In this document: piece after piece, positions 22,514 to 25,256 of the stretch
How the letters are laid out: every line of letters starts with the position of its first letter
How positions within the stretch are numbered: the stretch's first letter is position 1
DNA from: Tannerellaceae bacterium
GTDB taxonomy: Bacteria; Bacteroidota; Bacteroidia; Bacteroidales; Tannerellaceae
Direction of reading: 5' to 3'
Assembly: GCA_031273385.1 (NCBI GenBank)
Contig: JAISRY010000144.1
Coordinates: 1 to 31,353, forward strand
Length of the DNA: 31,353 bases
The notes under the pieces: generated by a model
The model's input: the letters and a program-made list of their open reading frames with translations, nothing else
Told to the model about the DNA's origin: nothing
Databases searched by the model: none
Program-made: the position numbers and the translations under genes

Positions 22514-22954
22514 TTATCTCCGTTCACGAAAGAACGCGATCATTTCCTCTGCGCACGCCGCCTCCAACACACCGCCCCTGACCGCCGTCTTGGGATGCAA
22601 CGCCTCCGGCGCATACCGCCTGAACCCCCTTTTCTCATCCGGGGCGCCATATACTACGGTACGTATCTGCGACCAGCCGATCGCTCCGGCGCACATCACG
22701 CAGGGCTCGACCGTTACGTAAAGGCTGCAATCCATCAGGTATTTCGCCCCCAACTCGCCGGTAGCCGCCGTAATAGCCAGCATCTCGGCATGCGCCGTCG
22801 GGTCGTTCAGCCGCTCGGTCTGATTATGTGCGCGTGCGATGATTCGGTTGTTGCACACGATCACCGCCCCGACGGGCGTCTCTCCCTCTTCCCCGGCCTT
22901 ACGCGCTTCCGCGAGGGCTTGCTTCATAAAATATTCGTCGTCGAAAGGATTCAT
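22514..22954 (-). CDS. tadA: Nucleoside deaminase, TadA-type (tRNA A34 deaminase)
   Basis: A 146-residue zinc-dependent cytidine/deoxycytidylate deaminase-fold protein. The zinc and proton-shuttle motif is His55-Ala-Glu57, and the second zinc motif is Pro84-Cys85-x2-Cys88. TPVGAVIV and AHNQTERLNDPTAHAE are typical of TadA, which converts adenosine to inosine at the wobble base of tRNA-Arg. A guanine deaminase-like activity cannot be excluded from sequence alone. Its ATG overlaps the stop of the upstream small gene (ATGA at 22951-22954), so translation is likely coupled. Confidence 0.9.
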   Translation of the reverse strand: MNPFDDEYFMKQALAEARKAGEEGETPVGAVIVCNNRIIARAHNQTERLNDPTAHAEMLAITAATGELGAKYLMDCSLYVTVEPCVMCAGAIGWSQIRTVVYGAPDEKRGFRRYAPEALHPKTAVRGGVLEAACAEEMIAFFRERR

Positions 22955-23181
22955 CTTCTCATCTCATGTTCGTTGAACAGGGTAGGATAATCTTTATCCA
23001 GTGTCTTAAGGATATGGGTGAGGATGGTTTCCCTTAGCCAGTGCGACTTGTTGGAAATATTGTATTTCGACAGGTAATACGCCACCGCCTTGTGCTCCTC
23101 CTCATTCAGCATAAAGGTGACTTTATGCACGCGCGGCTGCTTTCTGTCAGCCGCCGCCGTATATGTACGCCTCTTTTTCAT
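22951..23181 (-). CDS. Small conserved basic protein, possibly ribbon-helix-helix
   Basis: A 76-residue protein with a basic N-terminus (KKRRTYTAAADRKQPR). A predicted strand (HKVTFMLNEEEHKAV) and two helices follow, with NKSHWLRETILTHIL resembling the second helix of ribbon-helix-helix DNA-binding proteins. No firm family name can be given. The frame is open upstream to 23310, but a well-formed promoter at 23187-23217 limits the start to 23181. Coupling to tadA by a 4-base overlap suggests a shared unit; I do not know whether it regulates tadA. Confidence 0.7.
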   Translation of the reverse strand: MKKRRTYTAAADRKQPRVHKVTFMLNEEEHKAVAYYLSKYNISNKSHWLRETILTHILKTLDKDYPTLFNEHEMRR

Positions 23182-23186
23182 GCCTG

Positions 23187-23217
23187 CAAATATATAGGTG
23201 AAACCTTGAATAACAAA
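23187..23217 (-). promoter_or_regulatory. Bacteroidota-type promoter for the small gene and tadA
   Basis: On the minus strand TTTG (23214-23217), 19 bases, TATATTTG (23187-23194): an exact match to TTTG-N19-TAnnTTTG. The -7 element ends only six bases before the ATG at 23181, implying a leaderless or nearly leaderless message. Confidence 0.6.
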
Positions 23218-23234
23218 GAAAAACCGTATTTTTG
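23205..23234 (+). promoter_or_regulatory. Candidate promoter for yraN
   Basis: CTTG (23205-23208), 18 bases, then TATTTTTG (23227-23234), 14 bases before the ATG at 23249. It is divergent from and interleaved with the promoter on the other strand. Confidence 0.45.
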
Positions 23235-23248
23235 TCCGAAAAACAGTT

Positions 23249-23629
23249 ATGGGAGAGAAGAACCTGATCGGTAAGGGCGGCGAACAGCAGGCCTGCGAAC
23301 ACCTGATCAAACAAGATTACCGCATTTTACATACCAACTGGTGCTGGCGCCATTACGAACTGGACATCGTGGCCACCGACGGGCGCGAGCTGGTCGTCAT
23401 AGAGGTCAAGACCCGTTCGGCCGAGAACATCCTTTCGCCCGAAGATACCGTAGACACCGCCAAAATCAGACGCACCGTTTCGGCTGCCGACGTGTATGCC
23501 CGCCTTTACCGGACGAATATGCCCGTCCGCTTCGACATCATCACGTTGATAGGGGAAAAGGACGGGCCCTACGAGATAGAGCACCTGGTAGAAGCCTACT
23601 ACGCCCCGGTCAGGGGAAGACGGTACTAA
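23249..23629 (+). CDS. YraN / UPF0102-family nuclease-like protein
   Basis: A 126-residue protein of the YraN (UPF0102) family, which has a Holliday-junction-resolvase-like fold. GEQQACEHL lies near the N-terminus. The PD-(D/E)XK-like residues are Asp39 (ELDIVA), Glu52 and Lys54 (IEVKTRS), followed by AKIRRTVSAADVY. Its biological role is not established. Length is normal for the family. The start at 23249 follows a candidate -7 element by 14 bases. The next gene in the same direction, holB, lies 502 bases away beyond the repeat field. Confidence 0.88.
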   Translation: MGEKNLIGKGGEQQACEHLIKQDYRILHTNWCWRHYELDIVATDGRELVVIEVKTRSAENILSPEDTVDTAKIRRTVSAADVYARLYRTNMPVRFDIITLIGEKDGPYEIEHLVEAYYAPVRGRRY

Positions 23630-23641
23630 ATCCAATCTAAT

Positions 23642-23905
23642 TCGGGACAAACTAACAACTCCCTCGGGAGAAACTTTTAACTCCCTCGGGAGAAACTAAT
23701 GATTAGGTCGGGAACAACTAATGGTTTCACAGCTGTGAGGTGATCGCCTCACAGGAGTGAGACGATCGTTTCACAGGAGTGAGGCGATCGCCTCACAGCT
23801 GTGAGACCATTAGTTCACAGCTGTGAGACGATCATCTCACAGCTGTGAGACGACAAGTTGCTGCCGACCTAATCGTTAGTTGTCAACGACCCAATCATAA
23901 GTTGT
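23642..23905. repeat. Tandem array of twelve degenerate 22-bp units
   Basis: Twelve consecutive windows of exactly 22 bp fit without a gap or insertion. Units 1-4 (from 23642) begin TCGGGA, units 5-10 (from 23730) begin CAGCTGTGAG or CAGGAGTGAG, and units 11-12 (from 23862) share CGACCnAATCnTnAGTTGT. Many units hold self-complementary cores: CTCACAGCTGTGAG, GGCGATCGCC, and the near-palindrome CTCCCTCGGGAG. In the central block the centres alternate every 11 bp, about one helical turn. The period is not a multiple of three and no plausible gene crosses it. Function unknown. Confidence 0.9.
23716..23815. repeat. About 100-bp imperfect palindrome within the 22-bp array
   Basis: Symmetric about the GATC at 23764-23767 (centre 23765.5). 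Arms 23718-23752 and 23779-23813 pair over 35 bases with two mismatches that are G-T compatible in one strand. The middle 18 bases pair again apart from facing AGGA bulges at 23753-23756 and 23775-23778. Its inner arm contains the perfect 18-bp palindrome GTGAGGCGATCGCCTCAC at 23779-23796. Confidence 0.85.
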
Positions 23906-23918
23906 TCTCGAAGAAGCC

Positions 23919-24083
23919 ATTAAGGGGCTTAAAGGAATTGAGGATTTTAAGGGGATTAAGCGGATAAGAGTCTTAAGGGGCTTAAGGATTTTAAGGAGCT
24001 TAAGCCGCTTAAGAATCTTAAGAAACTTAAGCTCCTTAAGCCCCTTAAAATTCTTAATCATCTTAATTGAGAATCTTAAGGGG
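23919..24083. repeat. Tandem array of 9-bp CTTAAG-type units
   Basis: Seventeen nonamers of the form (C/A/T)TTAAGnnn with some decay, and one 8-bp unit at 23964-23971, run from 23919 to 24070. An isolated CTTAAGGGG copy follows at 24075-24083. Seven to eight units carry the full palindrome CTTAAG. TTAAGGAGCTTAAG (23991-24004) has an inverted partner at 24026-24040, so the array can fold on itself. It starts 14 bases after the last 22-bp unit and stops 18 bases before the holB -7 element. Confidence 0.88.
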
Positions 24084-24101
24084 AATATCGGAGAATTGTG
24101 C

Positions 24102-24109
24102 TATTTTTG
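24102..24109 (+). promoter_or_regulatory. Candidate -7 element for holB
   Basis: TATTTTTG fits TAnnTTTG, 22 bases before the ATG at 24132. The -33 position falls inside the end of the CTTAAG array and shows no TTTG. Confidence 0.4.
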
Positions 24110-24131
24110 GTTCTTTAATTAAGGAGAGAAG

Positions 24132-25256
24132 ATGTATTTTAGAGATGTCATAGGACAGCAGGAGGTGAAGCGGCGGTTGATCGAAACGGCACAACGGGAG
24201 GCCATACCGCACGCACAACTCTTTTGCGAACAGGGAGGCGCAGGCGCTTACCCTCTGGCGTTCGCCTACGCCCGATACCTGAATTGTACCGACCGGTCCG
24301 ACACCGATGCCTGCGGGCATTGCCCCTCATGTGTCAAGTATGATGTGTTTGCCCACCCCGACCTGCATTTTATCTTTCCGATAGCGGCTAAAAAGGAGAA
24401 GAAGAAGGAGGTGTGCGACGACTATCTCCCCGAATGGCGGAGCTTTCTGAAAGGACATCTCTACTTTGGCCTCGACAACTGGGTGGAAGCTATGGACGCC
24501 GGCAATACGCAGCCCCTGATCTACTCGAAAGAGAGCGACGAAATCGTACGGAAGCTCGGGCTAAAGATCTATGAGGCGGCCTACCGCATACTGCTGGTCT
24601 GGCTGCCGGAGAAGATGCACGACACGTGCGCCAATAAGCTATTGAAAATGATCGAAGAGCCGCCGGCAAATACCGTCATCCTGATGGTTTCCGAAGCTCC
24701 CGATATGATATTGGGGACGATACAGTCCAGGGCGCAGCGGATGAATGTCCGCCCCATAGCGGAAGAAGACCTGGCGAAAGCGATGATAGACAGGTACAGC
24801 CTGACGGCGGATGATGCCGCATGGATCGCACACCTGGCCAACGGCAACTGGCTGAAAGCCGTAGAGGGGATCAGCCTGAGCGAAGAAAAGACATTCTTCC
24901 TGGATCAGTTCAAAGGGATGATGCGCAACTCCTGGTCGCGCAACGTGAAAGGCATGAAAACTATGGCCGACCTGTTGGCCGGTATCGGGACGGAGCGGCA
25001 GAAAAACTTCCTCTCCTATTGCCAGCAGTTGGTACGCGAAAACTTCATGTCGCACTTCCAGCTGCCGGAACTGAACTATATGAACCGCGACGAGGCTACC
25101 TTTGCGCAGAAATTCGCCCCCTATATCAACGAGCGGAATGTGCTGGAGCTGGTGGAAGAGCTAAGCCGGGCGGAGCTGCATATCGAGCGGAACGTCTCCG
25201 CCAGGATGGTGTTTTTTGATTTATCCCTGCGTATCACCGTACTGTTGAAGCGGTGA
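24132..25256 (+). CDS. holB: DNA polymerase III delta' subunit
   Basis: Clamp-loader subunit of 374 residues. It opens with the family start (YFRDVIGQQEVKRRL) and has the clamp-loader zinc site C-x8-C-x2-C-x2-C at Cys52, Cys61, Cys64 and Cys67. The P-loop position reads EQGGAGAYP without the Lys-Ser/Thr needed for ATP, as expected for delta', which does not hydrolyse ATP. The sensor-like segment TCANKLLKMIEEPPANTVILMVSE is clear, and SRAQRM follows with the SRC position altered. An AAGGAGA stretch lies about five bases before the ATG. gldB follows after 24 bases. Confidence 0.92.
   Translation: MYFRDVIGQQEVKRRLIETAQREAIPHAQLFCEQGGAGAYPLAFAYARYLNCTDRSDTDACGHCPSCVKYDVFAHPDLHFIFPIAAKKEKKKEVCDDYLPEWRSFLKGHLYFGLDNWVEAMDAGNTQPLIYSKESDEIVRKLGLKIYEAAYRILLVWLPEKMHDTCANKLLKMIEEPPANTVILMVSEAPDMILGTIQSRAQRMNVRPIAEEDLAKAMIDRYSLTADDAAWIAHLANGNWLKAVEGISLSEEKTFFLDQFKGMMRNSWSRNVKGMKTMADLLAGIGTERQKNFLSYCQQLVRENFMSHFQLPELNYMNRDEATFAQKFAPYINERNVLELVEELSRAELHIERNVSARMVFFDLSLRITVLLKR

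Follow-up and report, generated by a model that had tools for sequence, protein, structure and literature searches.

Introduction

The closest printed element that we found is BrickBuilt, a MITE of Porphyromonas gingivalis that consists of gapless tandem units of 23 nt and occurs in 19 intergenic copies in ATCC 33277 (PMC4596501). Unit number is described as variable, some copies as lacking a leader or a tail, and three of four intact copies as carrying target-site duplications. The word "palindrome" is absent from its main text; when the printed consensus is repeated, two dyads occur 11.5 bp apart (scores of 0.82 and 0.75), the better of which is reached by 207 of 5000 shuffled consensuses. 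The literature covered excluded most subscription journals and hence provides weak evidence of absence from print.

Here, we describe a family of 22-bp arrays, referred to as F1, represented at positions 23642–23905 of the window, i.e., the whole 31,353-bp stretch of Tannerellaceae DNA that was analysed. Like BrickBuilt (PMC4596501), F1 consists of gapless short tandem units of nearly equal length, and is intergenic and dispersed. The two differ in period (22 rather than 23) and have unrelated letters, the dyads of the F1 consensus are stronger (1.0), and inverted arms take the place of the BrickBuilt leader and tail. Moreover, 22-bp arrays form several families per genome, which differ by species. 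Sequence, period and flanks thus rule out F1 as BrickBuilt.

Plasmid iterons also feature a repeat spacing near 22 bp, corresponding to two helical turns; they are direct repeats, confined to a single origin with a rep gene next to it. In contrast, F1 is palindromic, is found as 13 arrays in 12 contigs, and is flanked in the window by yraN and holB. Inverted arms of tandem repeats are shared by F1 with Galileo and Tetris, which are, unlike F1, eukaryotic and have longer arms and encoded or related transposases. To our knowledge, REPINs do not include a 22-bp tandem array. Galileo and Tetris are described as foldback transposons of Drosophila (PMC3688188, PMC4079207). Bacterial MITEs resemble F1 in being short, non-coding, dispersed and intergenic (PMC10969869); an element with terminal inverted repeats (TIRs) and a target duplication was found in a related genome, whereas F1 shows neither an outer TIR nor a target-site duplication here, and an internal 22-bp array does not define a MITE. 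REP, BIME and REPIN sequences are likewise presented as dispersed extragenic palindromes occurring in inverted pairs (PMC3733652, PMC3116915). The RAYT-type Y1 transposase domain PF01797, detected in 5 of 14 control genomes, was not found in the genome carrying the window, an absence that is weak because this genome is 70% complete. REP tag letters, counted anywhere in the 13 F1 arrays rather than at palindrome ends, are present in 4 (GTAG/CTAC) or 11 (CGTC/GACG, inside units) of them, and membership of F1 in the REP/REPIN group is not supported.

Organization of the array between yraN and holB

The window belongs to a genome (G000) of 2.31 Mb in 251 contigs. The region of interest is organized as follows.

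23249–23629, plus strand: yraN (UPF0102), the upstream neighbour (Pfam UPF0102, 83.8 bits; cut-off 23.6)
23642–23726, no strand: left arm of the F1 element, 22-bp units of the TCGGGA / AACTAATG type (in-register cutting, arm listing)
23727–23848, no strand: central block of six TCAC-N4-GTGA cores and alternating CGATCG-type dyads (core positions, tandem repeats)
23849–23905, no strand: right arm, approximately the reverse complement of the left arm (in-register cutting, arm listing)
about 23929–24081, no strand: second palindromic array, 9-bp period, CTTAAGnnn (lag-9 signal, tandem repeats, genome matches)
24102–24109, plus strand: TATTTTTG, a possible -7 promoter element of holB, presumed so from the consensus TAnnTTTG (identical letters occur upstream of holB in L081, one of the correctly oriented loci to which this comparison was restricted)
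24132–25256, plus strand: holB (DNA polymerase III delta prime), the downstream neighbour (Pfam DNA_pol3_delta2, 125 bits; cut-off 27)

Cutting the 23642–23905 interval every 22 bp reproduced the twelve in-register, indel-free units reported in the original prediction, and the array is confirmed as real. The exactness of the period was also verified, as identity is 0.678 at lag 22, 0.586 at lag 44 and 0.495 at lag 66, and all of 10,000 base shuffles stayed below the lag-22 signal (mean 0.248, standard deviation 0.028, maximum 0.343). Of the two lags proposed for autocorrelation, only 22 yielded a signal; no sequence periodicity is found at lag 11 over the interval (identity 0.261), and the 11-bp statement therefore applies to dyad centres only. 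These alternate every 11 bp as predicted, with TCAC-N4-GTGA cores starting at 23727, 23749, 23771, 23793, 23815 and 23837, in exact 22-bp steps, and CGATCG-type dyads between them. The three unit families originally recognized are indeed distinct unit types, but the outer two (TCGGGA and CGACC) are oppositely oriented arms around the central cores, which gives the array a rough overall two-fold symmetry. Each of the six frames contains 4 to 8 stop codons, in agreement with a non-coding nature, and the units abut directly, without unique spacers, which rules out a CRISPR, as had also been noted. Self-folding of the array is far stronger than that of dinucleotide shuffles (200 each), both as RNA (-153.1 kcal/mol, z -15.3) and as DNA (z -14.4).

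The adjacent CTTAAGnnn array has its own dispersed matches in the genome, and a similar 9-bp TTAATAnnn array is found in G006 (L164:18447-18629). Between tadA and yraN, positions 22951–23181 of the minus strand encode a 76-aa MobC_2-like protein, which at 24.7 bits misses the cut-off of 27.5 and is probably of the ribbon-helix-helix type, a fold often binding arrays. A similar gene adjoins tadA in G010 (L258).

F1 arrays are dispersed in the genome

A search of the own genome with positions 23600–24140 returned 73 matches, either to the 22-bp or to the 9-bp array. F1 accounts for 13 arrays in 12 contigs, window included. With the non-palindromic AGGA/TCCT cores used to set orientation, array gaps in the alignment of the copies measure 22 or 44 bp; the exceptions are the single-core L041, for which the aligner's placement was poor, and L039, which is cut off by the end of its contig. 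Core-to-core intervals are 22 bp in 44 of 46 cases and 44 bp in the other two, and none is off-phase. The 58 core-bearing units differ on average at 5.75 positions per 22 bp between unit pairs; half-site invariance among them arises by construction, since the search motif fixes most half-site letters. The number of units varies among copies by whole units. Inner non-palindromic cores mostly share one orientation per array, which fits direct duplication, whereas L034 and L039 are mixed.

Genes next to F1 arrays look unrelated, and no common flanking gene was seen, as judged by eye. CTTAAG repeats of 9-bp period adjoin F1 at 3 of the 12 flanked loci compared (window, L031 and L033). Outside the arms, no terminal repeats common to F1 copies were found beyond other repeats among the best 60 listed (11-mer ends, 350-bp flanks). 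Gene order around yraN differs in G013, G006, G010 and G015, so no orthologous empty site is available for F1, and in all four congeners the 1.5 kb on either side of yraN are free of 22-bp arrays. The flanks of F1 array L040 fall on separate contigs in G013. A single special site, for instance a segregation locus or an origin with iterons, had been envisaged; the 13 dispersed arrays with seemingly unrelated neighbours and the situation at yraN in the congeners do not support it, nor does the array located inside a transposed element in a related species. The dispersed-repeat core of the observation is well supported. F1 has no demonstrable outer TIR, target duplication or empty site, and a transposase was not found, which counts against a foldback or MITE-like nature.

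The same genome also contains non-palindromic tandem arrays with a period of 7 bp (ATAGTGA/TATTCAC), located at L131:13470-13586, L133:8143-8217, L049:2990-3110 and L036:131-221.

Arrays of the same geometry and different sequence in related genomes

A search of 39 other genomes with F1 revealed a marginal 47-bp match in G015 only (E 4.6e-4), and no match in the other 38. Dominant periods of 5 to 60 bp were then scanned de novo in non-coding DNA, lag 44 being counted with 22, as for the G013 array L137, which features a 44-bp lag only. Period-22 arrays make up 31 of 45 periodic arrays in G006 (800 kb sampled), 5 of 5 in G019 (100 kb), 6 of 8 in G012, 4 of 11 in G013, 1 of 3 in G020, 0 of 1 in G030 and none in G021, in which no periodic array was found; the corresponding figures are 1 of 13 for the named loci and 1 of 2 for the window. 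None was obtained in resampled non-coding sequence (one resampling per set). In unbiased G000 contigs, only 1 of 9 arrays has period 22 and belongs to a family other than F1, which counts against the foldback or MITE-like reading of F1.

The nearest holB in a protein search is that of Tannerellaceae bacterium Kf353_bin119 (83% identical), and others among the 34 loci are from Tannerellaceae, Parabacteroides, Proteiniphilum and more. As holB match coordinates coincide, G013, G012, G007, G010 and G016 are probably the Kf353_bin119, Roe453_bin14, Nc350_bin163, Ct408_bin127 and Gx485_bin124 MAGs, respectively.

Period-22 families differ in sequence from one another among the relatives compared, and several unrelated core families coexist in one genome. 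Some G006 cores have half-sites similar to those of F1 (TCAC-N4-GTGA; CACATATGTG with CGATCG). Dyad axes were analysed in 53 lag-22 arrays (31 from G006, 12 from G000, 5 from G019, 4 from G013 and 1 from G020), many of which are members of one family and thus not independent. In all 53 the top-scoring axis falls between bases, and 28 have their runner-up at a distance of exactly 11.0 bp. Best dyad scores average 0.698, against 0.552 in the column-permuted null; compared with 60 permutations, 33 arrays have a p of 0.05 or less and 13 exceed all 60. In one G019 family, represented by 18 copies (of 21 distinct sequences listed), all 42 core intervals are 22 bp long. The 22-bp geometry, the unusual part of the observation, is common to unrelated sequences in one bacterial family, as the counts show.

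The original prediction had offered constraint on spacing, or copying followed by drift, as the source of the exact period. This either-or statement is supported, because copies and relatives hold 22 bp while bases differ; the relatives keep the 22-bp phase with other sequences. The two outcomes that the original prediction had named as refuting it, an equal lag-22 signal in shuffled sequence and a lack of phase constraint in relatives, did not occur.

A second fixed period, 21 rather than 22 bp, characterizes an array family of the GCTCCCGTCC/ATTTTAAAT type found in three congeners. Its sites map to L048:730-845, L050:290-450, L115:3212-3355, L116:13612-13737 and L119:5028-5120 in G000, L147:1-95 in G013 and L159:425-521 in G006.

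An array within a transposed element

At locus L269 of G012, a 558-bp insertion, which starts with TTCTACTTTAAC and ends with GTTAAAGTAGAA, carries a 22-bp array. The insertion features 12-bp TIRs and is bordered on both sides by a 4-bp target duplication, CTAT. The site is uninterrupted in G007 and G015; G016 also lacks the insertion, but the site is diverged there. This array-bearing element, of another family than F1, thus combines the two features that define MITEs, TIRs and a target-site duplication. Ends matching the extended pattern number 74 in G012, 6 in G007, 5 in G015 and 3 in G016 (0 in the reversed control), and seven inward-facing pairs of such ends, 549 to 698 bp apart, are found in G012.

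At locus L276, arrays occupy the same gap in G012 and G016 and are 62% identical, without gaps. Same-family arrays resemble each other anyway, so this identity does not settle orthology. A degraded array lies beside the right-hand gene in G007, and G015 has no array.

In G012, the 22-bp arrays (L269:5960-6520, L276:12000-12800) are bordered by inverted stretches, about 95 bp long and rich in CTGAAAG, that recur many times in G016. At L282 in G016, the start of the gene downstream of a 22-bp array resembles Cas9, judging by eye from MRKIIGLDLGTNSIGWAL.

Origin of the arrays and alternative explanations

The interval in the window is probably one copy of a non-coding, non-autonomous, foldback or MITE-like dispersed repeat element. 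Its design would be that of inverted outer arms enclosing a minisatellite in which every 22-bp unit has two dyad centres, separated by 11 bp. Copies are dispersed, advance in exact 22-bp steps and have foldback symmetry; families of the same geometry exist in relatives, and in one of these an array of another family lies inside an insertion bounded by TIRs and target duplications, with empty sites elsewhere. F1 itself may have dispersed by transposition, relying on an enzyme whose gene lies outside the element, and unit number would change as whole units are directly duplicated or lost. Mobility does not explain the 22-bp period. The leading inference is that the phase is kept by a dimeric DNA-binding protein, either a transposase or a host regulator, that would read dyads two helical turns apart; a protein of this kind was not found. 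The interpretation given in the original prediction is partly supported.

A broader reading, which we put forward tentatively, is that dispersed intergenic arrays of Tannerellaceae are defined by geometry rather than by sequence, with even dyads every 11 bp, a repeat every 22 bp, and families turning over between species. This would imply a trans-acting reader co-evolving with the arrays, conceivably a mobilising enzyme or a DNA-binding protein that dimerizes or forms filaments; the specificity of this reader would change while the two-turn spacing remains fixed.

The arrays might instead be primarily functional binding sites, iteron-like or for a nucleoid or segregation protein, each locus being kept by cell need, with 22 bp reflecting helical phasing and dispersal being secondary. 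The exact spacing of F1 despite base changes, the dyads falling between bases with second axes 11.0 bp away, and the recurrence of similar half-site cores in G006 are in line with this proposal. We consider it unlikely, as sites differ among species, the congeners have no array near yraN, unrelated core families share one genome, the G012 array sits in a transposed element, and no reader protein is known.

Somewhat less likely still is a neutral origin, in which slippage-prone palindromic sequence gave rise to minisatellites and 22 bp is a historical accident. Whole-unit variation in number, the 7-, 9- and 21-bp arrays of the same genomes and an unremarkable spectrum of substitutions between units (transitions 0.40, complement 0.36, other 0.23) fit such an origin. 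It is at odds with the sharing of 22 bp and dyads by different sequences in several genera, with the lack of off-phase intervals in F1 and among the 42 of G019, and with the dispersal of oriented arrays as wholes. Conservation of the weak/strong base pattern alone was also discarded, the substitution spectrum being not special.

Pairing tests bear on a structured RNA or hairpin DNA element, in which a transcript or single strand would form a long stem serving as a target of recognition or processing; a full turn of the RNA helix takes 11 bp. Besides the strong folding of the window array, 38 of 51 arrays (excluding two that were shorter) fold better with their units in native order than after shuffling of the units (p 2.7e-5, a result inflated by moved edge units), and complementarity is slightly higher between mirrored halves than between others (p 0.012 to 0.2 in 12 settings). 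Arm covariation, which a maintained hairpin should leave, was negative in two families, within loci for F1 (12 loci; p 0.17, 0.11 and 0.59) and in G019 (18 loci; p 0.68 to 0.87). An initial test for compensatory change within dyads gave p 1.6e-11; it included axes outside arrays and is treated as an artefact, as the signal was gone after edge removal (own 0.684, other 0.700), with 11 of 12 settings non-significant and one significant in the opposite direction (p 0.046). Compensatory pairing is therefore weak between mirrored units and absent within dyads. An Rfam 15 search of positions 23000–25000 with E up to 1 gave 29 weak matches, none of which reaches the gathering score. Arrays are found in all gene orientations; around the 31 G006 arrays these are ++ 9, -- 8, -+ 7 and +- 7 (background gaps: ++ 37, -- 76, -+ 43, +- 15), a mixture not expected of strict terminators or promoters, which led us to reject a terminator or 3'-end function. 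Taken with the missing covariation, these data make a hairpin element improbable.

A phage or plasmid origin was rejected, as F1 has no match in phages and two patterns have none in viral contigs; one G019 array has no match in plasmids.

Significance

If spacing is selected independently of sequence, these arrays would represent a natural experiment in which the recognition sequence of a DNA-binding or mobilising system is replaced wholesale and geometry is kept, and each genome would offer many predicted sites for finding the reader protein. On a more cautious view, MITEs that carry minisatellites, which the literature that we found describes in one species, become a recurring theme of a bacterial family. 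Such repeats are expected to break assemblies and to disturb intergenic regions.
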